42,636 nt of DNA, from NCBI GenBank assembly GCA_018398765.1, contig JAHBMJ010000381.1:6585-49220 (forward strand), given 5' to 3'. Under the pieces are notes generated by a model. The model was not told the origin of the DNA, ran no database searches, and saw only the letters and a list, made by a program, of their open reading frames with translations. This stretch comes from Chromera velia. Taxonomy: Eukaryota; Sar; Chromeraceae. Position numbers and translations under genes: made by a program. This document shows positions 14,165-40,770 of this stretch, piece by piece; within the stretch, counting starts at the first letter, position 1, and every line of letters starts with the position of its first letter.

Positions 14165-14969
14165 TTTCTGGTTCTGCGGAGCCGGCACACCTGTACACAG
14201 CCAGACACACTCTGGGCACAAGACAAAAAGACGAGCGCTGCGCTGCCAGAAAAGAGGGAGAGGAAAGATGGGGAAAGGGCGTTCCAATGAAAAAGGAAGC
14301 TAGGAGTGAAGATGATCGATTGAAGATGAAAATCTATGAAAATCTCGACTCTCTGACAGCGCGAGATGCGCGCGGCACGCGAGGGCCGCCAAAAGCATGC
14401 ATGCCAAAACTGAACGCGCACGCGCTTTTTTTTTCGTGGGTCGCGGAATGTCGCGGAATGTCGCGGAATGTCGCGGATGGTCGCGGAGTGTTGCGCAATA
14501 TTGCGCAAGATTGCGCAAGACAATCGAAGACAAGGGCGGAGATTTGCGGAGCATACATCGTTGTGCTACGTTGTGCTGCCAGCTCTCCGAGGTTGACTGA
14601 ATTCCCGGTTGATTGTTTGAGCTTCAATGCTGAGCAATGAAGCCTGAGAATCAAATGAACTCAAAGAGAACAGCGTGATAAGAATTCGACCGACAAGGAA
14701 CAATCCTGAGCCAGCAAGTGCGTGTCAAAGTCAACACAACAGCGAATCTCAGAGATTCAGACTGAGCACCGTACCTTTTCCTTTCTCCGTTGAAACCGTA
14801 AGTCTGTCGATTCCCTTCGGGTTGGCAGACAAGCGCACAGGGACGTCCTGTACAAAGTAAACCTGAATCCCATAGACGAGATCGACGGATCGACGAAGAA
14901 CCAGTCTGTCCACCCAACAAACCAAGCAAAAGAGCAACAGTCGTCAAACGAAAGAAAGAAACCGACCAA
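14165..14969. promoter_or_regulatory. Divergent upstream region, CCDC47-like gene / glycoamylase-like gene
   Basis: These 805 bp separate two outward-pointing start codons and probably hold both promoters and 5' UTRs. The outstanding element is the 10-bp-period array at 14441-14520. A further 10-bp tandem pair (TTGTGCTACG/TTGTGCTGCC) sits at 14561-14580. No clear TATA box was found. Confidence 0.55.
14441..14520. repeat. Eight-unit, exactly 10-bp-phased GC-core array
   Basis: Five consecutive decamers of TCGCGGAATG type (14441-14490) are followed without a gap by three of TTGCGCAAGA type (14491-14520). The unit boundary stays on a strict 10-bp grid. TTGCGCAA is itself a palindrome. One unit per helical turn in a divergent promoter suggests phased protein binding, but this is inference. 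Confidence 0.9.
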
Positions 14970-19030: not shown

Positions 19031-19614
19031 GGCACGCACAGAAAAAAGAGAGAGACAAATCAAAAGGACTGGTGCGTGCCTCTAGAGAGCAAGACGGAGG
19101 AGGGTGTCTGGCTGTTTTTGCTGCTCTTTGCTCTGATCCTTCGCCTCCTCTTCCGACTTCATGCGACATCATTCTATTAATATTTAGAAAGGGAATGCAG
19201 GGAATCAAACGGTTGAAAGCAACAACAACATCAACAAACTCTACCACTTTTCTTTCTCACTCCCCCTCTCCTCTTTTCCTGTTTTCTCTTTCCCTTCCTG
19301 CTTTTCCACCCCTCTCCCATCCGGCAGGCAAAGAAAAAAGAGAGAGACAAATCAAAAGGACTGGTGCGTGCCTCTAGAGAGCAAGACGGAGGAGGGTGTC
19401 TGGCTGTTTTTGCTGCTCTTTGCTCTGATCCTTCGCCTCCTCTTCCGACTTCATGCGACATCATTCTATTAATATTTAGAAAGGGAATGCAGGGAATCAA
19501 ACGGTTGAAAGCAACAACCACATCAACAAACTCTACCACTTTTCTTTCTCACTCCCCCTCTCCTCTTTTCCTGTTTTCTCTTTCCCTTCCTGCTTTTCCA
19601 CCCCTCTCCCATCC
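19031..19614. repeat. 292-bp tandem duplication, two copies
   Basis: Copy 1 (19031-19322) and copy 2 (19323-19614) abut exactly. By eye they differ at three positions: 19035/19327, 19039/19331 and one site in the CAACAACAACA/CAACAACCACA run near 19225. The near identity implies a recent unequal exchange or replication slip. Confidence 0.95.
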
Positions 19615-20216: not shown

Positions 20217-20458
20217 AGAGAACAACAGAATGTAGGGGAAAGAAGATCGAATACCTCATGCGGAGTCCTTCCTCCCACCTGCATGGACATGCGCGGGAAG
20301 AAAAAGAAGGGAACAGAGACCAAGAAGATGGAGAGAAGCTGATTCTCTCTTTTGTCGGTCTATCTGAATTCATTCTTTTGTCAATCAAAAAACGCTTCCC
20401 CGTGCTCCATGGACTGATGTCGGTCTGTCCCTCTGACCCTCCTTCCTTCCTTCAGACA

Positions 20459-20529
20459 GCAGCGAGGGGGCGATCGAAGAACTCCTCTACGAATTCGAGG
20501 AGAAAGAGGAGGAGTCAAACGGGGCGTGA
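20459..20529 (+). other. Possible terminal exon, acidic tail
   Basis: After a CTTCCTTCAG acceptor, one frame reads DSSEGAIEELLYEFEEKEEE and a few more residues to a TGA. If the glycosidase used a GTGACG donor at about 18803, phases would match and this acidic tail would replace its last five residues, with a 1.65-kb intron. The unspliced TAG at 18820 is the simpler model. Confidence 0.25.
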
Positions 20530-22000
20530 GCAAAGAAAGAAATGAAAATGGAATGACGAAGCCCCCAAACTCACTGCATGAAGTCAGAAAAAGAAGAGAA
20601 AGGTTGAGGGCATGATGAGGGAATGAAGAGAAGAAGGAAGCAAAACCAGCAGATAGAGTGGGGGACGATCGACCCAGGGGGAGCACGTCAGTCAGGCGCC
20701 CCTTGATTTAAGAATTCATACTCCATTTCTCTTTCTTCCACCGTCTCTCTTGTTTGCTCGGTCGGAGAGACAACCTGTGTGTCTGTCTGTTTGTGTCTCA
20801 ACCTGTCTGTCCGTCCGAGCTTTTTCTAGGCCATTCTTCCTCGCCGTCTTCCACTCACCGTTTTTGCGATCCTTCCTGCCCTCGCTCCTCATAAATTTCA
20901 ATGAGGCCGAGACGTGACTGCAGCAGCAGTATTGCTCTTAGACCTCTATGGTCAGAAGGAGATGAAGGCCATCCGTCGATCGACTCTTTTGCATGTCCAT
21001 TACATGGTGCGTCGTCTTGAGGTGCCTCGTGGTGACTCAAACATGTGGTAGATGCTCTGCAGGCGCAGGCATTTCTGGGCAGTTTGTGACAACAGGCAGA
21101 TTGATGCAAAGGAGGAGAGGAGCAAACAGGAACAAGTGAAGGGGGGCAAAGAAGTCACCCCGAGCGGGAGAGACACAACGGAAGAAGAGAGGGAGGGAAC
21201 ATGTTGGCATGGATTATGACTGCACAGACGTTGTGTGGCTGGCTGGCTACCGAATTCACGAAAGAAGGAGAAAGAGGTTGGCAGAGAGAGAGAGTTCCGT
21301 GACGCTTCCGGTCCCTCTGCCTGCCCATCTCTTTTCTTCTCTTCCTTCTTTCGAGTTACCTGTGAAGTTGTCCTGCCTGCATGCAAGCACAATTTGATCC
21401 ACATGCATCCAAGCTGAGCAAGACTCGGACAAGTTCCCGGTCTACGAGTTGTCCAGGTGTTTGCTTCTTCTAAGTCATTCTTTCTGCCTGCACTTCGATT
21501 AACGCATTTGTTGATCGCTTTCTCTCTGAGTTGCCGGGCGATGAGAAGAGAAAGCAAAGAAAGCAATGTTGATGCAAGTGCTTCCTTTTTTCATCATCTG
21601 TGCAAGTGTGGTGGTTAGCTGCTGATGCTTCAAAGAGAAAGACCTGTTGACGCTACACGTACAGTGTCTTAAAAAAAAAGAGTGAACATTGAAAAACCAC
21701 TCACTTGGACTAGGACTTGGCTAGGGACTTGGATAGACTTGGAATGCCAAGTGGCTGAAAGACGCGCTACAAGCGGGCTTTATACACGCTGGTGTGCAAA
21801 TAACTACATAAAATATGAGAACTTCCATTTAAAATGGATCCGTTCATACCTATAGGCTATAGCTAAGATCGAAAAGGGCATTTGAAGGTGGTATCACAGT
21901 GCTTACAACATCAAATTCTACATCAAATTGTCATCAATTAAGGTGTTTACTCATGATATAATTATACTGCTAGTACCCATATAAAAAAATCCTGAAATTG

Positions 22001-23698
22001 GTCTTAACTAGGGATATCTATCGTATTGTATCGGTATCGTATCGGAATTTAACGTTCCAAAAAAAGGGGGTATCTTTGATAATTTTGATGCTGAAATAAA
22101 ATTTTTAGCATACGAGGTAGTGACTATGTTTGATTTGATTTGATTTGATTTGATTTGATTTAAGTTAGGGCTTAAGCTCAAATCAAATATCCAGTCAGGG
22201 AGGACCTAGTGTTTAAAGACCTATCAAATACGATCAAATATTTGATCAATATGACTTTCAACCTCAAATATGAAGGTCCCGAAAAAACTTTTGTAAGTAC
22301 CGATCCGTCACGCATGCTGATTCAAATGAAAAAACCTAAATCTTGATGGTTTGCTCTCAAAAAAAAAAGTTTTGAGCTGCATTGAAATTGATGTTTCACC
22401 CCCTTTTACTTCATGCAGAGGTAAACCGATCAGCTGAACGTTTTCCCGAACAGCTGTGTTGACTTTTCTGGTGCTGGAACATCTTTTACGGCCCTCTTTT
22501 TGAGCGTCTGCAAACATTTTACACCCCATAAAGACATGTCACACAATCCGACAAGGTCGAACGGGAAGAAGGAGGCATTTGTTTTTAGAGCCGGGTACGC
22601 AAAAAAAATATGGTCCATGCAAAAGGGGGCAAATGTGATTTAGTGTCAGATGAAAATATAAGGAGCTGAGGGGGAAAGAGAAACTATTTGCGGCTGTGAG
22701 TATACAGCAGCGGCAACCAGTTCTTTTCAAACCCACCTCATCAATCAGCATGGCTTGACGATCACGTCTGACAAACAAATAGCAAACGTGTGCGCGGTTC
22801 TCGTCTTTTTCACCCAGGAGCACCCACTCCTGGAAAGCCGAAAAGCCAGAGAAAAAGCTCTCAGCAGCTCCCACCACCGATCGATTCGATTCATATTGAA
22901 GAAAGTGATCATGAAAAAGAGGAAAAGGAAGTGCCATAAAGCTGAGTGATTGTCACCTCAATTTTGGTACGTGCTCTAACTTTATCGTATCAACAAAAAG
23001 TCATATACAATTTCAAATCTATTAATTTTACGTTCTTAATCTCTATTAGTACTAGAGTGAGTCTCAGTGACTAGTGTATATACACTGCCACACAGGCATA
23101 TTTTTTTTACGGAACTGATAAGTTATAATTTTATATATATTTTTTTAAATTTTTGAAACACACATCAGAAATGTTCTGATAACTATTGTCATGAGAAAAA
23201 TGATCAGAGTGACAGTAAGTCAGTGACTCAGTGAGGAACTCTAAGAGGTTAACCTCAAATCTTACCTCAAATATCAAATATTTGAGGTTGAAGCTCAAAT
23301 CAAATCAAATCAAATCAAATCAAATCACATCAAATCAAATATAATCAAATCAAACATGGTCACTAGTACGAGGCTAAAACCTATAGTGCAAACAGTATCA
23401 TTCGTCAAACTAAAAACTTTTTGTAAAAACCTCATGTTTTTAAAGAGTCAACTTTACTTAGAAAATGGGCTTCGAAACGTTTAGAAGGCCAAACTACCCC
23501 CCTAACCCCCCCTTTTAAAAGAGTCAACACATCATCAGATTAGTAGTAGTCCTTCACAAATATTCACATGCAAGCTCTAAGCAGGCCGATACTAACCAAT
23601 ACTCGGCCGCTCGAGAAAGAACCAATAGTCAATACTTCGATACCGATACCAATATAATACGATACGATATCGATACAATAGCTATCCCTAGTCTTAAC
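22001..23698. mobile_element. hAT-like MITE in unit A, split by a nested insertion
   Basis: Terminal inverted repeats begin TAGGGATA(T/G)CTAT and continue into CGTAT/CGATA-rich sequence. The element spans 22009-23690 and is flanked by a perfect 8-bp target duplication GTCTTAAC (22001-22008 and 23691-23698). Removing the nested element and its duplication leaves 426 bp, exactly the length of the copy in unit B. The 8-bp duplication and TAGGG terminus fit the hAT superfamily. There is no coding capacity, so it must have been moved by a transposase encoded elsewhere. Confidence 0.88.
22110..23373. mobile_element. Nested 1,248-bp hAT-like element with GATTT-repeat termini
   Basis: The element (22118-23365) has terminal inverted repeats TAGTGAC(T/C)ATGTTTGATTTGAT, extended by (GATTT)n at one end and (AAATC)n at the other. 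It is flanked by an 8-bp target duplication, ATACGAGG (22110-22117) and GTACGAGG (23366-23373), which differ at one base. Unit B has a single uninterrupted GTACGAGG at the equivalent place, an empty site that proves the insertion. Internal ORFs, the largest a 132-codon minus-strand ORF at 22539-22937, show no recognised transposase motif. Confidence 0.9.
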
Positions 23699-23721
23699 AC
23701 TATAGTCTTAATATCTAGCTC
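23548..23721. repeat. Left copy of the ~174-bp duplication flanking retrotransposon A
   Basis: It starts AGTCCTTCACAAAT and ends ATATCTAGCTC, and includes the right end of the MITE plus about 30 bp of flank. It matches 28296-28469 over its full length, apart from scattered transitions. Confidence 0.88.
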
Positions 23722-26700
23722 AGTTAGTTAGTTAGTTAGTTAGTTAGTTAGAAGATGCCTAACCCCAGTAACTGTTGGAGCGCTAAGCTCCCGGGCGGCA
23801 TATACATGCATGGTTGTTGTTTGTTAAGTCGCCGGTGGAGTTGATCAGTTAATCACTTTCTAGAATAGAAAGAGAAGCATCAAAGAGACAGAGCGTAGAA
23901 GCGATCGAATGACATTACAGATAAAGAGTTCAGATATACTTGCACCGGGGAGTGGACAGTTACAATCATTTAAATTAATGGATTCCAGCTCAGCCAGGCA
24001 GTGCAGGAATTCTCTTTCATCCAGCTACTTGGCACATGAAGAAAGTCTATGCATGAAGTCATCAACATACTGAATACAAGAATCATGTACACAGAGTTTG
24101 TGGTCGCTACATTCAAAAGACAGAGCACTGCTTTCGCCTTGTGGTTTAAATAAGAGCAGACGTAAGAAACCGAACAGAGAGCTGTCGGTTACTATGAGAA
24201 CAGATCGAGGGAGAGCAGAAAAGGAGTAGAGACTAGAGGCGGATTTATTGTAAAGAAGAAACATAAACATGCGATGAGAGGAGGGAAAAGCTTGTTGAAG
24301 GGGGGTGAGCTTGGCAAGAGGAGGGAAATGTGAAGAAGCGATATTAGCCCCCGCCCGCCGCGTGCAGACCTCTTCCATAACTGTATGTCTAGCTCTGCCC
24401 TTAAAAAAGAGAGAGCCGGTTCCATGAACTCTCTGTCACTGCTGTCCGCTGGTGCTAGGGTGTTGCAGCACTCCCACCCCTAACGAACAAACAAAATCCA
24501 GACCAGCCCAACGAAGCAGCCACAAGGAGGCTCTCAAAAACTCTGGACAAGTGTTTCTCTTCCAGCTTGGCACGTAGCATTGCAGCGGGAACGGTATGCA
24601 TGGTTTGTGAGAGCGAGCACCACCAGTCGGCCACTTTAGAGCAAAGCAGGGCTTTTGCAGGAAGCAGGCCGAAAATACACAGGGAGGGCAAACGAAGACT
24701 GCGAGCAGGCAGACGGCCAGACCAGCGTGCAAAACGGAGCTGCAAAGCATCGATTGCAAGAAGATCGGCATCACAAAGAGGGAAGGATTCGAGGCAGTAC
24801 AGTATAACAGAGGACCAACATGCTTTAAAAATAGTCATTTACGTATCTACACTGAGGGAATCTATGCTGGCAATCAGACCAAACACAGCCCCCAGCGTGC
24901 AGGAGGCCGAAGCAATACGCAATTCAACTGTCTCACTGAGGCTTCCCCCCTCAAAGAACAGGCACCCCAGGTACTTGTATTCCGTTGCCTATTCAACCTC
25001 TTTCCCTTCATATTGTAACACCACCACACTGGAGCTTTTCCCAAATGCAGAGGCAGACAGGCGAAGAATCTTTGTCTTTTTCAGATTAACTGTAAGTCTC
25101 CATTCTTTGCAATACTTCTCGAGAGCAGAGAATTTCTTTTGAAGGTCTGAGACGGAATGGCCAAGAAAGCAGAGATCGTCAGCATAACTCAAACTGTCCA
25201 GGATACAATCATCTAGCAAAACTCGCTCCGGCTCACTTTCTGGCTCCTCTCCACTGCCCGTTTCCATTTCAGAATCTAATATGTCTGCCCGCTCTCGCTC
25301 TACTGCCTCGCTGGTATGCCTTGCCTCGCTCTTCTAGCTCGCTCTTGCTTGCAGAACACACACGGGGGAGATCATTTATGTACAAAAGAAAAAGAATAGG
25401 CGAGAGGGCATCCCCTTGCTTCACTCCAGTGCCCTCCCAAAAATGTAGAGAGTCCCCGTCAACCTTGCCCCATACCTCTCTGTACATTTCACAGATCATG
25501 CAGATGTCTGCCTCACTCACACCTTCATTTCTCAGTTTCTGAATTAACTTTGCTCTCGGCACAGTGTCAAACGCCTTTGAAAAGTCAACAAAACCTGCTA
25601 ACAGAGCCTTTCTTTTCTTTTTACATGAAGAAACAACAGAGACAAGAGCACCGACCCCCTCTCTGAGGCTCGTTCCCACCCCTTCACGGAACCCTAGCTG
25701 TTTGAAGTTAAGACAGACCTGGGAATGCATACGGCAGTCCATCAGGAGGCCGAAAAGTTTTGCAAAAGGGTTTACAACATGGATTGGTCTCCATTCGTTA
25801 GGAGAGGGGGAAGCAGCCTGAGGGCCTTTCAGAACTAGGCAAATGTGCAAAACGTTCCATGAAGGAGGCCAGCAAGCATGAATATGCATCAGGGCTAGGC
25901 ATCAAATTAAATAAAACAAAAAGTAAAAAGCGGGAGAGAGCAGATTTGGCAAAGCAGAGATCTAGCTGTGCAAAAGAGATGCCTTCAAGGCCAGTAGCTT
26001 TCTTCTTGTTCATTTTCTTCAGGTGGGAAGAGATCTGGTGAAAAGAGAAGGGCAGAGCAGAGGGGTGGAAGGGAGGAGAGGCAGGGGGATGGACCAAAGG
26101 GAGAGGCTCCTTGTTCAGATCTTCAAAAACACCCGCCCAATAGTTCAAAAATATGCGGGAGGACGGGCATGATACACCACCAGCCGACGAGGCGGCTTTC
26201 TTCTTCCTTTTCCAAAGGGAGAGAGGATCCTTGAGGAATTCTTCTTGAACCCTCTGTGCTTCTTTCTTCTTCTAAGCAGCCTGTTTGCGTTTAAAGAGGC
26301 TACGGCGGACCCGGAGTAGTCTCTGAAGGCGATCGAATTCCAATCCTCTCCCACCCATATCTCTCACCAACTTCCAAACGCGGTCCGCCTCTCTTACTTC
26401 CTTTTGTATGGACTTACATTCTTCATCAAACCAAGCCTCTTTCATTCTACGCTTAACCCCCAACCCAAACCTTGCTCCGTTCTTTTTCAGTTTCACAGGC
26501 CCAACGAGCAGTCGAGACCACTCCTGGACAAATCTGAGGAGGCAAGCATGACTGTCCTTGGCCCCCCCTTGCGGAGAAAAGAGGGGATCAGGCGAGTCAG
26601 GGGGGCAGAAGAGAAAGGGCGGGAGGATTCGGGAGGGGGAGGAGGGACAGGCGGCTCTACAAAAGGCTCAATCTAGTTGTGATATTCCCATAGACCCAGC

Positions 26701-28295
26701 CAGCGCTATTCTACGAATCTTTTGACTGCAGCTGCCAACAGTGCAAGCTCTTCATCTGATATGGGGGTGGAGCGGTTAGAACAGAAGAGCAAAGGGCATT
26801 CAGAGAGGTTCTGGTGGGGCAGAAGGGCGTCTTCTTGCTCTGGTTTGATTGAAGGGGGGCAGAGGGAAAAAGAGACAGATGCGTGGTCAAGGGAGGCAAT
26901 ACCATCAAATTTAACCTTCTAATCAGCGATCTTCTTAACAACAGAGGGGTCAGTTAACATATAATCTATGACGGAGGTGGGCTTTGACATCTGCGACTGT
27001 CTGGAGTAATGCGTACAGAGACCAGGGAAGTCAAACTCTTTTCCACCCACTTTTTCTTTCAATCCGTTCAGGGGGACAAGGTTCGAATCGCTGCAGAGCT
27101 GAATAAAATTCTTTCCGCAGGGCTTGACTTCTTGTATACATTCAGAGGACCGTTTGAACAACGGTGTGTCTGCTTCAGTTTTGGGCCCCTCCCCTACAAT
27201 ACTACCATCTCCATTGCCTCCCCCCTCAAAAGGCTCCTCACTGCTACCAGACTCATTGGGCAGAAGAAGGAGATCTGTACAGGACCAGAGAAGATTCTCG
27301 GGTAAAAGGGAGCCTATATGTGTGTTGCAGTCCCCAACCACAACTCTATCGACATCCAGAGGGACCCCTCCAAAAAGGTTACTCAAATGGCCAGAGACCT
27401 TGTTGTCTCTGTGATCTAACCAGGAGCCAAGCAGGTAGACGCCAAAGATGTGAACCCTTCTAGAACCCCCTAACAGAACTTTTGTTTCCATTATACTGGG
27501 GCCGACCAACAAGATTTCAGGTTTCAATTCGCTCCATCTTTCTTCTTAAACTAACATACAAACTCCCCTAGTTTTCAATTCCCTGTCATGTGCTGCCCTA
27601 CGCGTGCCCAACTGCCGCCGGTACCATTCTCTGTAACAGTCACTGAAATTCTTTCCCTTCCACCCCTTACACAAAACGTCCCTCATAACCTCTGACATAT
27701 CTGTCAAGATTACAATATTGCAATCAATCTCATTTAGCCAACAAGCGAGGGAACCGTCCTCTTCCCTGGCCTTCAGGCCGGCAACATTTAGGGTAACAAT
27801 CTTTACTCTCCCATCCCGGGCCCTAATTGCAGCTAAAACCTTCCTTTCTACCATCTTCCTTCTCTCTCTCCAAAAAGCTCTTCTCAATTCTTCCGAATGC
27901 TTCAAATTATCTGCTGACTCCCACAAATACGAAAAAGCAGGGCCCCAATTTTAATCCATATAATACTCCCTCTACTCCCCTTCATTGATGTGAGTGTCTA
28001 ACACCTACACCACCTCCCACTCCGTCTCCAAAGCAACCAAGCCCCCTGCTTCCCCCGGCTGATCTAGCTGAGACTCTCGGGACGCGACGCCTGCCCTCTT
28101 GCTTTCTCTTCTTTTCTTCCCCCTTCCTTTTCTACGATTCTTCCTCTCTGCCCCACATAAAAGAGACGGATCCAAATAAAAAGACTCTAGAGAGGCTTAG
28201 CTGCAGGGGGGGGAAGAAGACAAAAAGTCAGGTACGATATCAGAGGCAAGAGGGGAGAGAGTCGAGTCGGAAAGAGAGGAGAGGGACTTACCTGC
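23722..28295 (-). mobile_element. Non-LTR retrotransposon, copy A (degenerate)
   Basis: A 4.57-kb LINE-type element read on the minus strand. Its 5' end is near 28295 and its 3' end is a (CTAA)n tail, seen as AGTTAGTTAG at 23722-23751. There is no poly(A) tail. It encodes an apurinic-type endonuclease followed by reverse transcriptase in one ancestral frame (see the pseudogene entry). Both sides carry the same ~174-bp sequence, which looks like a long target-site duplication. The retrotransposon appears to have landed at the right edge of the older MITE. Confidence 0.85.
23860..28230 (-). pseudogene. Endonuclease/reverse transcriptase ORF, copy A
   Basis: Pieces of one long protein can be followed from a basic N-terminal region to a C-terminal Cys/His motif. 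The endonuclease lies at about 27830-26920 (IVTLNVAGL, VVVGDCNTHIGS in place of the GDFN motif, SVIDYML). A KKATGLEGI linker leads to reverse transcriptase at about 26000-24980: EWRPIHVVNPFAKL, GFVDFSKAFDTVPRAKL, KQGDALSPILFLLYINDLP, SYADDLCFL, then ATEYKYLGCLF. The C-terminus has a C...H-x4-C motif near 24050-24110. In-frame TAA/TAG codons lie near 27946, 27546, 26919, 26274, 24989, 24836 and 24025. A one-base insertion near 25890 and a frameshift near 25270 also break it. It is therefore not functional as a standard-code ORF. Confidence 0.88.
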
Positions 28296-28469
28296 AGTCC
28301 TTCATAAATATTCATATGCAAGCTCTAAGCAGGCCGATACTAACCGATACTTGGCCGTTTGAGAAAGAACCGATAGTCGATACTTCAATACCGATACCGA
28401 TACGATACGATACAATATCAATACGATAGCTATCCCTAGTCTTAATACTATAGTCTTAATATCTAGCTC
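28296..28469. repeat. Right copy of the ~174-bp duplication flanking retrotransposon A
   Basis: Same sequence as 23548-23721. It contains a MITE right end (…AGCTATCCCTA) with no matching left end, as expected if it arose by duplication of the target at retrotransposon insertion rather than by a separate MITE insertion. It is followed by CT and TA microsatellites. Confidence 0.88.
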
Positions 28470-29970
28470 TCTCTCTCTATATATATATATAATATATATA
28501 CATATAGTATTAATTTATATTGATTTTTTCTTTATTTGGTCTAGTAGTATTCAGTATATGACTCGAAAAAACCTGGTATTAGGCTGGTAATAAACTGTAT
28601 AAGGTAGTGACCATAATATATAACCGAGCAGGCCGGCCAACTTGAAGGACGTCTGATGTGCTAGCTGATGCTTCTTTTTAAGTTTAGAAGCTGGACCTAG
28701 AGCTGGATATCGGATATTCGCTAGGATATTCCAATCATATTCGGCAGTGAATTGACACTAAACTCGGCATTAGGGCCAGGGCTAGCCTAAGGGCCAATCC
28801 TCTGGACATCGTACATAACTTCTTATCGGAGGCCTAGTCGGAGGCTCATCTTATTAATAATATTAAGTATAAATCCTATATTTATTATGCTAAAATAATT
28901 TTTGTGAATCACATTGCTAGTTACATTGATAATTATAATATCTCAGCCAAGCTAATTATCATGGTGCGTCGTCTTGAGGTGCCTCGTGGTGACTCAAACA
29001 TGTGGTAGATGCTCTGCAGGCGCAGGCATTTCTGGGCAGTTTGTGACAACAGGCAGATTGATGCAAAAGAGGAGAGGAGCAAACAGAAACAAGTGAAGGG
29101 GGGCAAAGAAGTCACCCCGAGCGGGAGAGACACAACGGAAAGAAGAGAGGGAGGGAATATGTTGGTATAGATTATGACTGCACAGATGTTGTGTGGCTGG
29201 CTGGCTATCGAATTCACGAAAGAAGGAAAAAGAGGGTGGCAGAGAGAGAGAGTTCCGTGACGCTTCCGGTCCCTCTGTCTGCCCATCTCTTTTCTTCTCT
29301 TCCTTCTTTCAAGTTACCTGTGAAGTTGTCCTGCCTGCATGCAAGCACAATTTGATCCACATACATCCAAGCTGAGCAAGACTCGGACAAGTTCCCGGTC
29401 TACGAGTTGTCCAAATGTTTGCTTTTTCTAACTTAAAGTCATTCTTTCTCAGACTGCCTGTACTTCGATTAACGCATTTGTTGATCGCTTTCTCTCTGAG
29501 TTGCCGGGCGATGAGAAGAGAAAGCAAAGAAAGCAATGTTGATGCAAGTGCTTCCTTTTTTCATCATCTGTGCAAGTGTGGTGGTTAGCTGCTGATGCTT
29601 CAAAGAGAAAGACCTGTTGACGCTACACGTACAGTGTCTTAAAAAAAAAGAGTGAACATTGAAAAACCACTCACTTGGACTAGGACTTGGCTAGGGACTT
29701 GGATAGACTTGGAATGCCAAGTGGCTGAAAGACGCGCTACAAGCGGGCTTTATACGCACTGGTGTGCAAATAACTATATAAAATATGAGAACTTCCATTC
29801 AAAATGGATCTGTTCATACCTATAGGCTATAGCTAAGATCGAAAAGGGCATTTGAAGGTGGTATCACAGTGCTTACAACATTAAATTCTACATCAAATTG
29901 TCATCAATTAAGGTGTTTACTTATGATATAATTATACTGCTAGTACCCATATAAAAAAATGCTGAAATTG

Positions 29971-30412
29971 GTCTTAACTAGGGATAGCTATCGTATTGTA
30001 TCGGTATCGTATCGGAATTTAACGTTCTAAACAAAGGGGGTATCTTCGATAATTTTGATACTGACATAAAATTTTTAGCGTACGAGGCTAAAACCTATAG
30101 TGCAAACAGTATCATTCGTCAAACTAAAAACTTTTTGTAAAAACCTCATGTTTTTAAAGAGTCAACTTTACTTAGAAAATGGGCTTCGAAACGTTTAGAA
30201 GGCTAAACTACCCCCCTAACCCCCCCTTTTAAAAGAGTCAACACATCATCAGATTAGTAGTAGTCCTTCACAAATATTCACATGCAAGCTCTAAGCAGGC
30301 CGATACTAACCGATACTCGGCCGCTCGAGAAAGAACCGATAGTCAATACTTTGATACCGATACCAATATAATACGATACGATATCGATACAATAGCTATC
30401 CCTAGTCTTAAC
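29971..30412. mobile_element. Intact 426-bp hAT-like MITE in unit B
   Basis: The element (29979-30404) runs from TAGGGATAGCTATCG to AGCTATCCCTA with GTCTTAAC target duplications at 29971-29978 and 30405-30412. It is uninterrupted and supplies the reference structure for the split copy in unit A. The interior has no coding capacity. Confidence 0.92.
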
Positions 30413-30435
30413 ACTATAGTCTTAATATCTAGCTC
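30262..30435. repeat. Left flanking duplication of retrotransposon B
   Basis: A 174-bp counterpart of 35005-35173. Its left/right differences (CACAAA/CATAAA, ACTCGG/ACTTGG, AACAC/AATAC) are the same as in unit A, so they predate the tandem duplication. Confidence 0.87.
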
Positions 30436-33400
30436 AGTTAGTTAGTTAGTTAGTTAGTTAGTTAATTAGTTAGAAGATGCCTAACCCCAGTAACTGTTGG
30501 AGTGCTAAGCTCCCGGGCGGCACATATATGCATGGTTGTTGTTTGTTAAGTTGCCGGTGGAGTTGATCAGTTAATCACTTTCTAGAATAGAAAGAGAGGC
30601 ATCAAAGAGACAGAGCGTAGAAGCGATCGAATGACATTACAGATAAAGAGTTCAGATGTACTTGTACCGGGGAGTGGATAGTTACAATCATTTAAATTAA
30701 TGGATTCCAGCTTAGCCAAGCAGTGCAGGAATTCTCTTTCATCCAGCTACTTGGCATATGAAGAAAGTCTATGCATGAAGTCATTAACATACCGAATACA
30801 AGAATCATGTACACAGAGTTTGTGGTCGTTACATTCAAAAGACAGAGCACTGCTTTCGCCTTGTGGGTTAAATGAGAGCAGACGTAAGAAACCGAACAGA
30901 GAGCTGTCGGTTACTATGAGAGCAGATCGAGGGAGAGCAGAAAAAGAGTAAAGACCAAAGGTAGATTTATTGCAAAGAAGAAACACAAACATGCGATGAG
31001 AGGAGGGAAAAGCTTGTTGAAGGGGGGTGAGCTTGGCAAGAGGAGGGAAATGTGAAGAAGCGATATTAGCCCCCGCCCGCCGCGTGCAGACCTCTTCCAC
31101 AACTGTATGTCTAGCTCTACCCTTAAAGAAGAGAAAGCCAGTTCCATGAACTCTCTGTCACTGCTGTCCGCTGGTGCTAGGGTGTTGCAGCACTCCCACC
31201 CCTAATGAACAAACAAAATCCAGACCAGTCCAACGAAGCAGCTGCAAGGAGGCTCTCGAAAACTCTGGACAAGTGTTTCCCTTCCAGCCTGGTACGCAGC
31301 ATTGCAACAGGAACGGTATGCATGGTTTGCGAGAGCGAGCACCACCAACCGGCCACTCTAGAGCAAAGCAGGGCTTTTACAGTAAGCAGGCCGAAAATAC
31401 ACAGGGAGGGCAAACGAAGACTGCGAGCAGACAGACGGCCAGACCAGCGTGCAAAACGGAGCTGCAAAGCATCGATTGCAAGAAGATCAGCATCATAAAG
31501 AGGGAAGGATTCGAGGCAGTATAGTGTGACAGGGGACCAACACGCTTTAAAAATAATCATCTGCGTATCTACACTGAGGAGATCTATGCTGGCAATCAGA
31601 CCAAACACAGCCCCCAAGGCGCAGGAGGCCAAAGCAATATGCAATTCAACTATCTCACTAAGGCTTCCCCCCTCAAAGAACAGGCACCCCAGGTACTTGT
31701 ATTCCGTTGCCTATTCAACCTCTTTCCCTTCATATTGTAATACTACCACACTGGAGCTTTTCCCAAATGCAGAGGCAGACAGGCAAAGAATCTTTGTCTT
31801 TTTCAGATTAACTGTAAGTTTCCATTCTTTGCAATACTTCTCGAGAGCAGAGAATTTCTTTTGAAGGTCTGAGACGGAATGGCCAAGAAAGCAGAGATCG
31901 TCAGCATAACCCAAACTGTCCAGGATACAATCATCTAGCAAAACTCGCTCCGGCTCGCTTTCTGGCTCCTCTCCACTGCCCGTTTCTATTTCAGAATCTA
32001 ATATGTCTGCCCGCTCTCGCTCTACTGCCTTGCTGGTATGCCTTGCCTCGCTCTTCTAGCTCGCTCTTGCTTGTAGAACACACACGGGGGAGATTATTTA
32101 TGTACAGAAGAAAAAGAATAGGCAAGAGGGCATCCCTTTGCTTCACTCCAGTGCCCTCTCGAAAATGTAGAGAGTCCCCGTCAACCTTGCCCCATACCTC
32201 TCTGTACATTTCACAGATCATGCAGATGTCTGCCTCACTCACACCCTCATTTCTCAGTTTCTGAATTAACTTTGCTCTCGGCACAGTATCAAATGCCTTT
32301 GAAAAGTCAACAAAACCTGCCAACAGAGCCTTTCTTTTCTTTTTGTACGAAGAAACAACAGAGGCAAGAGCACCAACCCCCTCTCTGAGGCTCGTTCCCA
32401 CCCCTTTACGGAACCCTAGCTGTTTGAAGTTAAGACGGACCTGGGAACGCACACGGCAGTCCATCAGGAGGCCAAAAAGTTTTGCAAAAGGGTTTACAAC
32501 ATGGATTGGTCTCCATTCATTAGGAGAGGGGGAAGCAGCCTGAGGGCCTTTCAGAACTAGGCAAATGCGCAAAACGTTTCATGAAGGAGGCCAGCAAGCA
32601 TGAATATGCATCAGGCTAGGCATCAGGTTAAATAAAACAAAAAGTAAAAAGCGGGAGAGGGCAGATTCGGCAAAGCAGAGATCTAGTTGTGCAAAAGAGA
32701 TGCCTTCAAGGCTAGCAGCTTTCTTCTTGTTCATTTTCTTCAGGTAGGAAGAGATATAGTAAAAAGAGAAGGGCAGAGCAGAGGAGTGGAAGGGAGGAGA
32801 GGCAGGGAGATGGACCAAAGGGAGAGGCTCCTTGTTTGGATCTTCAAAAACACCCGCCCAATAGTTCGAAAATGCGCGGAAGGACGGGCATGATACACCA
32901 CCAGCCGATGAGGCGGCTTTCTTCTTCCTTTTCCAAAGGGAGAGAGGATCTTTGAGGAATTCTTCTTGAACCCTCTGTGCTTTTTTCTTCTTCTAAGCAG
33001 CCTGTTTGCGTTTAAAAAGGCTACGGCGGACCCGGAGTGGCGATCGAATTCCAATCCTCTCCCACCTACATCTGTCACCAACTTCCAAACGCGGTCTGCC
33101 TCTCTCACTTCCTTTTGCATGGACTTGCATTCTTCATTAAACCAAGCCTCTTTCATTCTACGCTTAACCCCCGACCCAAACCCTGCTCCGTTCTTTTTCA
33201 GTTTCACAGGCCCAACGAGCAGTCAAAACCACTCCTGGATAAATCTGAGGAGGCAAGCGTGACTGTCCTTGGCCCCCCCTTGCGGGGAAAAGAGGGGATC
33301 AGGCGAGTCAGAGGGGTCAGAAGAGAAAGGGCGGGAGGATTTGGGAGGAGGAGGAGGGACAGGCGGCTCTACAAAAGGCTTAATCTAGTTGTGATATTCC

Positions 33401-35004
33401 CATAGACCCGGCCAGCGTTGTTCTGTGAAACTTTTGACTGCAGCTGCCAATGGTGCAAGCTCTTCATCTGATATGAGGGTGGAGCGGTTAGAACAGAAGA
33501 GCAAAGGGCATTCAGAGATGTTCTGGTGGGGCGGAAGGGCGTCTTCTTGCTCTGGTTTGATTGGAGGGGGGCAAAGGGAAAAAGAGACAGATGCGTGGTC
33601 GAGGGAGGCAATGCCATCAAATTTAACCTTCTAATCAGCGATCTTCTTAACAACAAAGGGGTCAGTCAACATATAATCTATGACGGAGGTGGGCTTTGAC
33701 ATCCGCGACTGTCTGGAGTAATGCGTACAGAGACCAGGGAAGTCAAACTCTTTTCCACCCACTTTTTCTTTCAATCCGTTCAGGGGGACAAGGTTCGAAT
33801 CGCTGCAGAGCTGAATAAAATTCTTTCCGCAGGGCTTGACTTCTTGTATACATTCAGAAGACCGTTTGAACAACGGTATGTCTGCTTCAGTTTCGGGCCC
33901 CTCCCCCATAATACCACCATCTCCATTGCCTCCCCCCTCAAAAAGCTCCTCACTGCTACCAGACTTATTGGGCAGAAGGAGGAGATCTGTATGGGACTAG
34001 AGAAGATTCTCAGATAAAAGGGAGCCTGTATGCGTGTTGCAGTCCCCAACCACAACTCTATCGACATCCAGAGGGACCCCTCCAAAAAGGTCACTCAAAT
34101 GGTCAGAGACCTTGCTGTCTCTATAATCTAACCAGGAGCCAAGCAGGTAGACGCCAAAGATGTGAACCTTTCTAGAACCCCCCAACAAAACTTTTGTTTC
34201 CACTATACTGGGGCCGACCAACAAAATTTCAGGTTTCAATTCGCTCCATCTTTCTTCTTAAACTAACACACAAACTCCCCCAGTTTTCAATTCCCTGTCA
34301 TGTGCTGCCCTACGCGTGCCCAACTGCCGCCGGTACCATTCTCTGTAACAGTCACTGAAATTCTTTCCCTTCCACCCCTTGCACGAAACGTCCCTCATAA
34401 CCTCTGACATATCTGTTAAGATTACAATATTGCAATCAATCTCATTTAGCCAACGAGCGAGGGAACCGTCCTCTTCCCTGGCCTTCAGGCCGGCGACATT
34501 TAGGGTAACAATCTTTACTCTCCCATCCCGGGCCCTAATTACGGCTAAAACCTTCCTTTCTACCATCTTCCTTCTCTCTCTCCAAAAAGCTCTTCTCAAC
34601 TCTTCCGAATGCTTCAAATTATCTGCTGACTCCCACAAATGCGAAAAAGCAGGGCCCCAATTTTAATCCATATACTACTCCCTCTGCCCCCCTTCATTAA
34701 TGCGAGTGTCTAACACCTGCACCACCTCCCACTCCGTCTCCAAAGCAACCGAGCCCCCTGCTTCTCCCGGCTGATCTGGCTGAGACTCTCGGGACGCGAT
34801 GCCTGCCCTCTTGCTTTCTCTTCTTTTCTTCCCCCTTCCTTTTCTACGATTCCTCTCTGCCCCACATAAAAGAGACGCATCCAAACAAAAAGACTCTGGA
34901 GAGGCTTGGCTGCAGGGGGGGGGAGAAGACAAAAAGTCAGATACGATATCAGAGGCAGGAGGGGAGAGAGTCGAGTCGGAAAGAGAGGAGAGGGACTTAC
35001 CTGC
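30436..35004 (-). mobile_element. Non-LTR retrotransposon, copy B (degenerate)
   Basis: Same 4.57-kb minus-strand LINE-type element as copy A, with its (CTAA)n 3' tail at about 30436-30473 and its 5' end near 35004. Shared flanks and shared lesions show that it was copied with the tandem block and did not insert independently. Confidence 0.85.
30582..34932 (-). pseudogene. Endonuclease/reverse transcriptase ORF, copy B
   Basis: The endonuclease pieces lie at 34638-34258 and 34239-33631, with DCNTHTGS and SVIDYML. The reverse transcriptase lies at about 32800-31700, with FVDFSKAFD, ILFLLYINNLP and GYADDLCFLG. A Cys/His C-terminus follows near 30790-30830. An N-terminal basic stretch (RRKGRGKKRRESK) precedes the endonuclease. 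TAA/TAG stops at the LV/EERW, AD/KVKF, AA/KKK, VE/ATEYKY and AK/LDERE junctions are shared with copy A. Copy B has TGA where copy A has TGG (PPSWNVL, near 32579) but has an open CAG where copy A has TAA (near 31558). It also lacks the one-base insertion that breaks copy A. Confidence 0.87.
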
Positions 35005-35173
35005 AGTCTTTCATAAATATTCATATGCAAGCTCTAAGCAGGCCGATACTAACCAATACTTGGCCGTTCGAGAAAGAACCGATAGTCGATACTTCGATAC
35101 CGATACCGATACGATACGATATCAATACGATAGCTATCCCTAGTCTTAATACTATAGTCTTAATATCTAGCTC
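35005..35173. repeat. Right flanking duplication of retrotransposon B
   Basis: Counterpart of 30262-30435, five bases shorter through loss of one GATAC unit. It is followed by the same CT and TA microsatellites as in unit A. Confidence 0.87.
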
Positions 35174-35664
35174 TCTCTCTCTCTCTATATATATAATATA
35201 TATACATATAGTATTAATTTATATTGATTTTTTCTTTATTTGGTCTAGTAGTATTCAGTATATGACTCGAAAAAACCTGGTATTAGGCTGGTAATAAACT
35301 GTATAAGGTAGTGACCATAATATATAACCGAGCAGGCCGGCCAACTTGAAGGACGTCTGATATGCTAGCTGATGCTTCTTTTTAAGTTTAGAAGCTGGAC
35401 CTAGAGCTGGACATCGGATATTTGCTAGGATATTCCAATCATATTCGGCAGTGAATTGGCACTAAACTCAGCATTAGGACCAGGGCTAGCCTAAGGGCCA
35501 ATCCTCCGGACATTGTACATATCTTTTTATCGGAGGCCTAGTCGGAGGCTCATCTTATTAATAATATTAAATATAAATCCTATATTTATTATGCTAAAAT
35601 AATTTTTGTGAATCACATTGCTAGTTACATTGATAATTATAATACTTCAGCCAGGCTAATTATC

Positions 35665-38163
35665 ATAGACTTAAGCAGTTACCACTGTTTAGTTGTATCT
35701 GGAGACTTCCTCGTCTCCGAGGAAGGAGTATATTGCTAACCTAGGCTAATAGCCTAGGCATAATAATTCTCGGGCACTGCTAGTCGTCTATCCTTACCTA
35801 GTTTGTGAGAAGGAGGTAAAGAGAGAAGAAAGGACCATAGAAAAGATGTTAGTCTGCTATACAGAGGCACCCTGCGTATAGAAGACTGGGCACGCGAGCC
35901 GCTGAAACAGTTATGAGTAGCCCAGAGCGACTCGACCCTGTTTCCCCCCAAGGCTCTGTTGCTGTATAGCAATCTCTAATATCTCTATCCTATTGGTGGT
36001 CCCTAGGCGACTGTTACCCCCTACCTCATGTAAGCTTGGTGTAAAGGAGGAATAGAGTTGGGATACTACTAGTATAGGTTTAATATATTTTAGTTGTATG
36101 GTTATCACCAGAGCCTTATTAGTGGAAGTACTGTGGAACTACCAATAAACAAGACCTTTGGTATATATGTCTGCAACAATTGTCGAAACATATAGGGTGG
36201 AGAGGGAGGGTAAAAGGAAATACCTATGGACCGCGAAGCCAGACGAAGAGGGCCCAAGTTCGTATGGCTCGAAAAACATTCGAATGAGTAGGCCGCCTAG
36301 TGAAAACAAACCCCACGAAGTCTCTCCTCGACTTGAACTAATTTGCCTTTCTTGAAACCTTGGAGCGACTCTATTTTTTGGAGACTGCCAATTTTATTGT
36401 TTTACTCGCATATGTATGCTTTGCGGGGCCATTAACGTAGCGACGTGCCCCGGCCTTACGGTGCTGCGCGCGGTGGGCTCCGCCACCCACTATCTTATGC
36501 GAAACGCGCTGTGTCTTAAGAGATAAAGGGTTCTAGCTCGCCCTGCCCGACTCACGCTAGGACTCACGCCTCCCCAGACCCTAACTAAAGATAGTGGATT
36601 GCTCCCGTCTGTGCCCTACGCTATATAAAGGAGAGCCCTCGGCTGCGCTTCACAGATGAATCTGCTAGTGGATTGAATTATAAAAAATTCTAGAAAAATA
36701 TAACTTATAGTTTGATCTAGTAGTTTGATCAGCGTTGTAAAGCATTGATTATAGTATAATTCAATCTAGAACTCAATATGATGATGATGATGTGATGATG
36801 ATATATGGGGTTAAAGCCGGTGAGCCGTATAGACTCTGGCCAACCTAGAGCGTCATACATAGAGTTAAACTTTCGACTTAGGCCCCACTGGGGTAAATTG
36901 AATCGAAGGGAGCCTGACAGGGGTGGGGAGGCGGATGGAAGTGGAGGGTGGCTCCACCTCTAAGCAAACAGGCTTTTGCTTCATCTGGTAGTTCTCTTAC
37001 AGGCTGAGTTACAACACGCTCTCTATCCCACCCTTAAGACGATCGAGGACTGCCTGCATTTCATATAGCTGTCGAGCGAGTTTCTTTGAGAAGTGCTTCG
37101 CAGTTACTCGCATTCTTTCAATTTCTTTCAAATTTTTTATATGTACGGGCCTAGGCAGTGTAGGCACGGGCAGTTGGATGGACGGTTGTACATGCTGTCT
37201 CGATCATATGAGACTCACTGTATGAGCCTGTATCAAGCAGTCCCAACCAAGCACACCCAGAAGCACACGTGCCCGGAATGCACTGCTCTACAAAGTTGAA
37301 TCAGTTAATGAATCACCAAGTCGCGAGAAGGCGACGTCACGACTCAAAGAGAACCCTTCCCCCGATTTAGTCGCACACGCACCCTCCAGACTAAATAAAT
37401 TTAGACGTTCTCTCGATATGTTCCGTGGTGTGCTTAGAGTAGGGGCACGGATTCCGAGAAAATCTCCTCATTTGAGCAGCCAGCCTCCTTGCTCAAGGAG
37501 CCGAGACAAAAATAGAATTTTCAATGAAGGAAGAAAGAATGAGAGAGGAAAATAACTTAGAAAGTAAAAAAAGAAGAAAGAAAGGACCAAAAGATAAATA
37601 GAGAGGCAAGGCAGGAGGGCCAGATGGAGAAGGGCAGGCACACATGCAATCAAGGGAACCGGTGATAAATTTAAACGTCTCTTCTGATTCTCTCTCCCGA
37701 AAAAAACGAAAGGTAAGTGAGCACCTCTCTTTATGAATCCATTTTACCCTTCCTTTTTTCGTTTGCTCTTCTTTCCGGTCAAGAAAGGACTTCAGCTGTC
37801 GGACGCTTTGCGCTTTCCTAGCTGCCCCCTGAAGGCTAAATAAAAGGGAGAGTCGATCAAAAAAAGGCAAAAAACACAGCTAGAGCGAGAGCAGGAGAAT
37901 TACTTAATGCTTAGATACGATAGAAGAAAAAGAAGAGAGACAGAAAGGAGGAGGCAATGAGAATAAACAAGAAAAAAGGTTGAGTTGACAGAACCCCCCC
38001 CCCTCCCGTCCGTAGAAGCATCCTTCCTTCTAAGAGTTCCTGCCTCCCTCCAAAACATACAGGGGGCACTTAGTCTGATCTTACGTTCCATTGACACTAC
38101 CAATCCTGCACTTTTTTGGCATGAGGGATCGGTCCGTCAACTATTCCTTCTCAGTTTGGTTTT
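35665..38163. other. Region without recognisable gene
   Basis: These 2.5 kb of mixed composition lie between the transposon block and the lipase gene. A GC-rich block (about 36420-36560) precedes a TATA-box-like CTATATAAAGG at 36621 and a 12-bp inverted repeat GATTGAATTATA (36671-36682) / TATAATTCAATC (36755-36766). A GATGAT microsatellite at about 36779-36803 adjoins GGGTTAAA. Beyond 37470 the sequence becomes purine-rich. This could be an old retroelement, but no domain supports that. Confidence 0.4.
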
Positions 38164-40770
38164 CTACATCATCGGTTCTCCGTGGAGCATTTGGGTAATC
38201 AGATAACTTCCAAAGTCAGCAGAAGTCGTGTTATCGTCATCTGGAACTGGCATCCTATCCTCCTCCCCAAAGCACTTGTTTTTTGTGCACAAATCCCAGG
38301 GGGAAGGCTCGTTAGAAAGAGAACCTGACCCCGATATGCGGGAGTGTCTTTCTGTCTGTTTGGCTGCCTGGTCACTACTCAATAGAAGAGGGGAAGAGGA
38401 AGAGGATGATGACAGAAAGGAAAAGGATTCACTGACGTGGATGTAAGAGAAACACATGTACGAACAGACGTGGGCTGCATCGACGTATCGACCATCTTTC
38501 TTGATGATCAGGCCATGATTCAAAAGCCTCCAGTTATTTAGCCAATTATCCGCAAACCTCAACACACCCACAGCGTCGGCATACTTAGCCCATGTCACGT
38601 TTCCTGTCGCTTTCTTCTTTTCTTTCTGTCGCGACTTCACAAGGGATAGGCCAGAGTGAGTGGACCTTGGGACAACAAGATCGGTGTGGGGCGTTTTGGT
38701 TTTGGATGGTTGGTGGAGGTCGGAGGAAACAGGGGAGGAAAGAAGAGACGTCTTCAAGCTTTTGGTACTAGTTTCGGTATCACTTCTACGGGCCATTTGA
38801 TAGGCTGGGGAGAGGCGCTCTGTCTGATTTCCCCCCATGTTGAATAGTCAAAAGTTCCCAGAGGTCCACACAAAATTGAATCTCTACAGACCATCGAAGG
38901 GATTGGGTCAACAACAAACTGCACAACCCGAAGGTTGGTTGTCTCGCTCGCTGCCTTCTGCCATTCCTCATCCCCTACTCTTCCTGCAGCAAACACCGTC
39001 CCAAACACCTTGGTGGGATATCCCATGATCGCCACATGTTTCTGCAGACCGACAGTAATTAGAGTCCCCACAAAGCCCCCCAGTGAGTGACCCGTAACGA
39101 TCACCCTCTCTGTTTCTTGGTTGATCATTCGCTTCAACACCTCAAGGGCCTGTCCCCCTATGGAACCAAAACCTCAAGAGACCTTACCGGGCATACCGAG
39201 AGGGACCTCGATCTGCTCCCAGTCCAGATCGCTCACCTGCATGAATTTGCATCCATCCATCCATATGGAGATTTGCATCTTTGTATCAGTAAGGATTTAT
39301 GGAGATTTCCTTCATCGTCGTGCCTCATTTCCCTAGCACCGACGTGCGTAGCCCTCCTCTGCATGTATGGATACTTGCATGTGTAATCACCATCGGAATA
39401 CATATCATCTTTCAGCATCCATCCAACCCCCCCCCTGGAAAGACACTCACCGCATCTGCAAACGTTGCTGTGCCTCTAACCGCCACCAGAAGACTACGGC
39501 CTCGAGAAGAAATAGAAATCCAGGGCAGCCCCTCTTCATTCGCCCCCATGTACTGGGGTGTGAAGATGCTTTTAGGCTTCCACCCAGGTAGAACCTCCCT
39601 GTCCAGGAAGCTCTTCTTTCTGCCCTCTGCACATTTGAAGTTTTTGGACATTTGATACATTCTCCAACTGGCCATCCAGAGTAGGGTGGCTGTTTTCTCC
39701 TCTGCATCGCTTAGAAACCCCTTGATCTGTGCAGACAGTGGCAACTCAGGAGTCTCAAATAGGAGCTCCAGCTCGGGTGCGTCTGACAGGAGAGGCACCT
39801 CTGGCGGCTCGAGGCCTACACCCGCTTTCCTGGCTTTGCAGTAGTTGATGTTCTTCGTGCACAGGAACTTTTTCATCGCCCACTGGAGATAGGGGCACAC
39901 GTCGACGTCAACTTTATTCGTGGCTGTGTGTACAATCTGGAAGCAGCTGTAAAGAAGGTCGGTGATCTCCCCTGCATGCACAGAGAGAAAGGCAGGCAAG
40001 AACATCGATCTATTCTATGAGTTGCTCTACATAGAGAAATAAGGACCTTTTCACACGAGCAGCAACAGGAAGTAAGTGGTGGGGCAGCGTGCAATCTCTC
40101 TCCCCCTCTCCTTCTCTCTCTCTGGTGTGTATCTGTATGTGTATACGTGTGTGTATATGTGTGTGGGGAGCGGTGGGTGGGTGGGGGGGGGGGGATAGGG
40201 TGTGTGTGAGTGTGTGTCTGCGCGAGTGTGCTTGTGTGTGCGTGTGCGTGCTTTCGTTCGTGTGTTACATTGACAACCGTTGATTTCGCTTCGAGGAATG
40301 GGCCACGGCATCCTGATCGGCAGTCAGCAAACGCACAAATGGGAGAAGGAGTTGAGGTGGCAGATTAAAAAACACAGACTTGGTTGAATATTATGTCATG
40401 AAAGTGTATATAGGTGTTTTGCATCCAACTGACTTTTCTTCCAGATAAAACCCCACAATCCGTGGAACACACACTTTTTCAGCTCTTTTGCCCAGCTCTC
40501 TGTCTCCACCATGGATGTGTTGGTCGTGGCTTCATCGGGAGGGGGTTCCTCAGTGTTGCACGGAATGCCCAGAGTTTGGGCGTTGGCAGGGTACAGGAAG
40601 GAGACGGGACGGACGCTCAGAATAGTTGAGACAGAATCGGAGAAAGCCTCCCCAATCTCCTCGCGGGAAACCTTGCGAAAGAGAAGCGAGCCGCTGCTCA
40701 GTGACACTAGCGCAAAAAAGACAAAAGCTGCAATCAGCTTGGCTCGGTTCATCACGGATCCGAATGACAT
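38164..40770 (-). CDS. Secreted class 3 (fungal-type) lipase
   Basis: Predicted triacylglycerol lipase of the Lipase_3 alpha/beta hydrolase family. Exons in gene order: 40770-40434, 39971-39451, 39236-39188, 39157 to about 38772, about 38636-38437, and 38367-38164. The start ATG opens a hydrophobic signal or anchor sequence (LIAAFVFFALVSLSSG). LLVAVRGTATFADAV is the family's oxyanion-loop strand (consensus VVxFRGT), VTGHSLGGFVGTL is the nucleophile elbow, and VFGTVFAAGRVGDEEW with VVQFVVDPIPSM matches the FGxPRVG and DPIP motifs holding the catalytic Asp. DGRYVDAAHVCSYM may hold the catalytic His. Phases agree for exons 1-4; the exon 4/5 junction is not settled. Length is about 560 residues. 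The intron between exons 3 and 4 is only 30 nt. The gene stands alone between repeats. Confidence 0.82.

Follow-up and report, generated by a model that had tools for sequence, protein, structure and literature searches.

A stretch of 42,636 nucleotides of the genome of Chromera velia (hereafter the window, part of contig C380; the assembly searched comprises 177.8 Mb in 4,040 contigs) carries two adjacent units of DNA, A and B, whose nested insertions very probably record a single succession of events: a miniature inverted-repeat transposable element (MITE) was followed by a non-long-terminal-repeat (non-LTR) retrotransposon, then by the tandem duplication of the block that contained both and, last, by a hAT-like element that entered one of the units; that is, layered insertions followed by a segmental duplication. 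This order of four events had been proposed in an initial annotation of the window, and it is supported by nested junctions, by nucleotide columns common to the two units and by an empty site (Table 1). Nested insertions and tandem duplications of such a kind are common. In fact, every layer of the locus is of a known kind, and the points worth following are the long target duplications of the retrotransposon family and its one-way decay.

Units A and B and the order of the insertions

In each unit, the retrotransposon copy lies between two copies of a 174-bp repeat that abut both of its ends and that consist of the right end of the MITE, the 8-bp duplication of the MITE and 23 bp of flanking DNA (31 bp outside the MITE). 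Since the repeat contains the right end of the MITE together with its 8-bp duplication, the MITE was inserted before the retrotransposon. In the four copies of the repeat, nine columns distinguish left from right copies in both units, in comparison with six changes found in a single copy (one column follows neither pattern, five are gapped and 153 are invariant), which indicates that the retrotransposon is older than the tandem duplication. The hAT-like element is present in unit A, and its empty site is kept in unit B.

Self-comparison and global alignment resolve the block into two head-to-tail units, with direct repeats at 20999-22117 and 28955-30087 (96.0% identity) and at 23366-28962 and 30080-35666 (95.3%). 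In the global alignment, the units are 96.0% identical over 6,682 aligned columns and differ by 267 substitutions (250 transitions and 17 transversions), by nine small indels and by a single gap of 1,256 bp in unit B, opposite positions 22110-23365 of unit A. The gap is accounted for by the hAT-like element (1,248 bp) together with 8 bp of target duplication, and the lengths reconcile: 7,957 minus 1,256 gives 6,701, against 6,704 for unit B. The same length check and a 6.7-kb tandem duplication had been given in the initial annotation; alignment of the two units confirms the head-to-tail repeat, and the limits set in that annotation (21004-28960 and 28961-35664) depart from the present ones by no more than the 3 bp of microhomology found at each edge.

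Table 1. Positions, in the window, of the features of the tandem block and of the adjacent repeat
Feature	Position	Strand	Basis or remark
Unit A of the tandem duplication	21003..28959		7,957 bp; edges uncertain by 3-bp CAT microhomology
Left 8-bp duplication of MITE, unit A (GTCTTAAC)	22001..22008		Right copy at 23691-23698
MITE, unit A	22009..23690		426-bp element split by insertion of the hAT-like element, with the extra 8-bp copy that this produced
hAT-like non-autonomous element	22118..23365		1,248 bp, confined to unit A; termini TAGTGACYATG; flanking 8-bp duplications at 22110-22117 and 23366-23373
Left 174-bp target duplication, unit A	23548..23721		Self-comparison, anchored scan
Non-LTR retrotransposon copy, unit A	23722..28295	-	3' end on the left, with the (TTAG)n tail; truncated 5' end on the right, at about 28295
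Reverse transcriptase fragment	25269..25901	-	Pfam RVT_1, E 1.4e-15
9-bp insertion common to both units	25271..25279		Where the reverse transcriptase frame stops; lacking in all 25 other family loci that span the site
Right 174-bp target duplication, unit A	28296..28469		158/174 identical to left copy
Unit B of the tandem duplication	28960..35663		6,704 bp
A/B junction, CAT microhomology	28960..28962		CAT also at 21003-21005 and 35664-35666
Uninterrupted 426-bp MITE with flanking GTCTTAAC, unit B	29971..30412		Junction inspection, relatives
Empty site of the hAT-like element, unit B	30080..30087		Single GTACGAGG, no footprint
Left target duplication, unit B	30262..30435		Self-comparison
Non-LTR retrotransposon copy, unit B	30436..35004	-	Self-comparison, alignment
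Right target duplication, unit B	35005..35173		5-bp deletion
Repeat X	35664..36654		About 990 bp; abuts unit B, whose right edge it forms with its left end

The uninterrupted MITE of unit B occupies 29979-30404 and is flanked by GTCTTAAC at 29971-29978 and at 30405-30412; the same flanks are found in both units, which bears out the 426-bp hAT-like element with an 8-bp duplication that had been described at first. Relatives of this element are numerous (176 first-look candidates, of which 40 were scored), and its main non-self matches show 80-91% identity. In all five of the relatives L004-L008, about 1.4 kb of further sequence separates the match to its left part (up to 30255) from the match to its right part (which begins at 30258). 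The 426-bp element therefore derives from a longer DNA transposon by internal deletion. The label MITE is thus retained for a short non-autonomous hAT-like element and refined to an internally deleted copy of that transposon. An 8-bp duplication with at most one mismatch was recognised in three of the five relatives.

The DNA transposons of the window resemble the hAT superfamily and its MITEs in their 8-bp target duplications, in terminal inverted repeats starting with TAGTG or TAGGG and in the many short, internally deleted copies; they differ in that the copies of the window yielded no transposase. We call them hAT-like on the basis of duplication length and of element ends, the latter judged against the hAT end consensus.

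The second of these transposons, the 1,248-bp element, is flanked on both sides by (A/G)TACGAGG, the two copies (ATACGAGG and GTACGAGG) differing by one transition, and bears the terminal inverted repeats TAGTGACYATGTTTGATT at both ends; three of three relatives are likewise flanked by duplications of 8 bp whose copies differ at one position at most. Its only open reading frame of at least 120 amino acids (22539-22952) gave no Pfam match above the cut-off. Its restriction to unit A, already recognised in the initial annotation, is confirmed by the empty site of unit B, the sequence of which is the one found in the MITE relatives L005, L006 and L008. The nearest copies of the 1,248-bp element are 96-97% identical to it, a higher identity than that of the main non-self matches found for the MITE or for the retrotransposon (86-93%); this agrees with, albeit without proving, an insertion more recent than the 4.0% divergence between the units. 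Elsewhere in the assembly (C2364:9700-13735), several copies or fragments of the hAT-like family are crowded in 4 kb and are perhaps nested in each other.

A retrotransposon with a long target duplication

The retrotransposon belongs to a high-copy family (330 first-look candidates, of which 40 were scored), and a tail of TTAG-like repeated units was found in the 26 copies outside the window that were scanned for target duplications. Its reverse transcriptase matches best, among solved structures in PDB, that of R2 (E 1.1e-16), followed by L1 (E 8.1e-7). The upstream reading frame gave no endonuclease match: it hit nothing in Pfam at E 1 and nothing meaningful in PDB. It contains possible APE-like motifs. 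Ten stretches were compared beyond the position of the 5' end of the window copy: six continue identically after CCTG(C/T)AGT, three continue in a variant and one (L073) breaks off before that end. The window copy is thus 5'-truncated, since its relatives continue past it.

The R2/L1-kind reverse transcriptase, the simple-repeat 3' tail and the 5' truncation are shared with non-LTR retrotransposons, or long interspersed nuclear elements (LINEs), from which the family differs in its upstream domain without a match to endonuclease models and in its target duplications, which are described below. RTE was considered as a possible clade in view of the simple-repeat tail and of the long target duplications, which occur in RTE elements. 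However, the two elements described in one paper on RTE have target duplications of 10-12 bp (PMC1291365).

Target duplications were sought by a scan anchored at the element ends, in which the score is the number of matches minus twice that of mismatches and the cut is 8, in the 27 copies with both junctions and in 108 controls with mispaired flanks. The 174-bp repeat of the window scores 126, in comparison with at most 6 in the controls, so that the retrotransposon described initially as lying beside the right edge of the MITE with a duplication of about 174 bp is indeed bounded by such repeats at both element ends. A score of at least 8 was reached by one other copy, L020, in which the duplication measures 137 bp (122/137 identical), and by none of the controls. 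The remaining 25 copies score 7 or less and have no clear target duplication; the highest of them, L018, owes its score of 7, just above the control maximum, to a TA run at its ends in which 9 of 10 bases match. These copies may have been inserted without any duplication or may have been damaged afterwards at the 5' junction. Long target duplications, therefore, recur in the family, in a minority of copies.

Besides the anchored scans, local alignments of 500-bp flanks and a BLAST comparison of flanks (1,294-1,450 bp at the left against 246-1,500 bp at the right, for 21 loci and the window copy) found a duplication in L020 and in no copy other than the window one; for C3383, C3469, C38, C676 and C1094, the flanks compared were about 430-500 bp. 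Matches between the flanks of L036, L037, L018 and L038 lie away from the element ends and were rejected. Nine extra copies were not counted, eight of which are stretches with no sure 5' end; C2248 and C710 yielded no tail, and C1154, which is broken inside, shows no target duplication. Truncated copies at two places of C3402, in C3476 and in C3264 (L038) have common sequence beside the tail and beyond the 5' end, and apparently represent one insertion spread by copying of the surrounding segment; no target duplication was found in any of them, and L038 is the one of this group among the 27 counted copies.

The right-hand 174-bp copy could also be read as an older, separate MITE fragment beside which the retrotransposon happened to land, leaving no target duplication, as would suit both the abundance of MITE relatives in the genome and the 25 copies lacking a clear duplication. 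We consider this scarcely credible: the repeat includes the 31 bp outside the MITE, its ends are those of the retrotransposon copy on both sides, and L020 repeats the same arrangement with 137 bp.

A duplication of 174 bp produced by the retrotransposon itself calls for comparison with other elements. R9, an element specific to the ribosomal DNA (rDNA) of rotifers, resembles the Chromera family in its very long target duplication (126 bp), which is reportedly called exceptionally long in the title of the paper describing it; R9 inserts in rDNA, whereas the Chromera copies differ from each other in both target site and duplication length. The 126 bp of R9 are cited as a quite distant cut, the usual range being 10-20 bp (PMC6895275). 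On the other hand, PMC1291365 puts the upper limit of L1 target duplications at several hundred nucleotides, beside which 174 bp stands out less. Tentatively, and with clearly less than even confidence, we suggest that the second-strand cut of this family either leaves no duplication or falls very far away (137-174 bp, beyond the 126 bp of R9) at unrelated sites, a two-outcome cleavage that would be combined with near-exclusive C>T decay.

Decay of the retrotransposon copies

Changes in the body of the retrotransposon were polarised by majority: a state was taken as ancestral if eight or more family copies covered the site and at least 70% of them agreed. The sites that fell short of this, among them 11 at which A and B differ, were dropped. 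Over the 2,667 sites retained, 72 changes are common to both units, 46 are private to A and 72 are private to B. Among the private changes, 110/118 are C>T or G>A and three are reverse transitions. For the 102 changes whose neighbouring ancestral bases were also called, within the retrotransposon repeat, the rate of private C>T/G>A change is 27/188 at CpG, 41/346 at CpA, 22/386 at CpT and 12/335 at CpC, against 3/1,263 at A/T sites. Furthermore, C>T/G>A changes exceed the reverse ones in all 28 family loci examined (L011-L038), a sign that the retrotransposon family is subject to such decay throughout the genome. To judge from these substitution patterns, the process looks like cytosine deamination, by way of methylation or of a repeat-directed mechanism.

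In the initial annotation, decay had been placed before the tandem duplication on account of stop codons and transitions. The changes common to both units and the shared 9-bp insertion support this timing, and the stop codons turned out to be weaker evidence than claimed. The upstream frame contains two in-frame stops common to both units and one private to B. The first shared stop is also a stop in L033, its only covering relative, and the second is covered by no relative; hence the shared stops do not prove decay before the duplication, and they were set aside.

Origin of the tandem duplication and its surroundings

The junction between A and B is a direct join, at which CAT is found, as it is at both outer edges of the block. 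Queries with the non-repeat segments 20400-21900 and 28420-29020 matched short pieces only elsewhere in the assembly. The left breakpoint of the block is single-copy DNA, and the right one is the left end of repeat X, an element that the initial annotation had missed. Of the 40 matches listed for this region, one is the window itself, 12 are repeat X and 27 are another short repeat at about 36778-37062. All eight left ends of repeat X that were fetched start with (C/T)ACAGA(C/T)TTA, all seven right ends fetched finish with (C/T)TTCA(C/T)A, and both kinds are bordered by flanks unrelated by eye; the ends read CACAGACTTAAG and CTTCACA in most copies seen. In the window and in four copies with both ends, no clear target duplication of repeat X was found beyond a shared CACA. 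The neighbouring repeat at 36778-37062 is about 285 bp long, accounts for 27/39 of the non-self matches listed, at 92-97% identity, and looks like a young, high-copy family.

The position of the breakpoints, in single-copy DNA and at the left end of repeat X, suggests a break at a transposon end that was joined by microhomology, and we regard this as the likeliest account. The direct join with 3 bp of CAT is what is seen in microhomology-mediated tandem duplications, from which the present case differs in that one breakpoint coincides with a transposon end. The chance of a breakpoint falling within 3 bp of such an end is about 1%, by a hand estimate made after the coincidence had been seen. 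A transposon end at one breakpoint would also be found after reversed-ends (alternative) transposition, as in maize Ac/Ds, a process documented for hAT elements (PMC3744419). According to the same paper, duplications of this origin have the transposon next to their junctions, together with an 8-bp target duplication. The A/B junction shows neither, and repeat X lacks a clear 8-bp duplication; reversed-ends transposition could be saved only by a later loss of the element at the junction, and we judge it very improbable.

An alternative is that the assembler joined the haplotypes of a single locus one after the other, as units A and B, in which case the hAT-like element would be a heterozygous insertion. 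The 4.0% difference, the private indels and the one private insertion would be expected of two haplotypes too, and the edges of a false tandem may fall anywhere. Nevertheless, the window contains no N, the junction is a direct join with microhomology, the neighbouring region 13300-16200 has a single match in the assembly, as if haplotypes were not kept apart there, and the right edge is a transposon end, though repeats attract contig ends; an artefact of this kind is therefore unlikely.

The most probable succession is the following. The 426-bp derivative of a longer hAT-like transposon inserted first, creating its 8-bp duplication. The retrotransposon then inserted beside it, presumably by target-primed reverse transcription, as a 5'-truncated copy, and nicks about 174 bp apart would have placed a copy of the right end of the MITE on the far side. 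The retrotransposon copy decayed, mainly by C>T changes, before the 6.7-kb block was duplicated in tandem, probably through the CAT microhomology. Both units kept decaying, and the 1,248-bp element entered the MITE of unit A only.

Several points weigh against this succession. A target duplication of 174 bp is untypical of the retrotransposon family, given the 25 copies without a clear one, and the 8-bp duplication is unrecognisable in two of the five MITE relatives. The 9-bp insertion and part of the 72 changes common to both units may be traits of a subfamily rather than local decay. The first shared stop is also present in L033. The presence of repeat X at the breakpoint could be a coincidence. 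Finally, the tandem is known only from the assembly, to which the haplotype artefact considered above applies, with the absence of N, the direct join and the single match of the neighbouring region speaking against it.

About 1.4 kb to the left of the block, a 292-bp segment occurs twice head to tail (19031-19614) with three mismatches; this is a second tandem duplication, younger than the A/B block if judged by identity. On its two sides, the block has exon-like frames with matches to carboxylesterase (4756-5313, forward strand), DUF3131 (14802-16145, forward strand) and class 3 lipase (38754-39173, reverse strand). In another part of the assembly (C4040:19500-20300, L123), a divergent small-subunit ribosomal RNA of bacterial type, probably that of a plastid, was found on a 64-kb contig.

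The locus provides a clean relative clock, in which a target duplication, later doubled as a pair, splits the changes into those before and those after the tandem duplication. If long duplications are common in the family, they would help the study of how LINEs choose the site of the second-strand cut, the half of their reaction that is called very poorly understood in PMC6895275. The one-way C>T decay, in turn, would bear on the silencing of repeats in Chromera velia.

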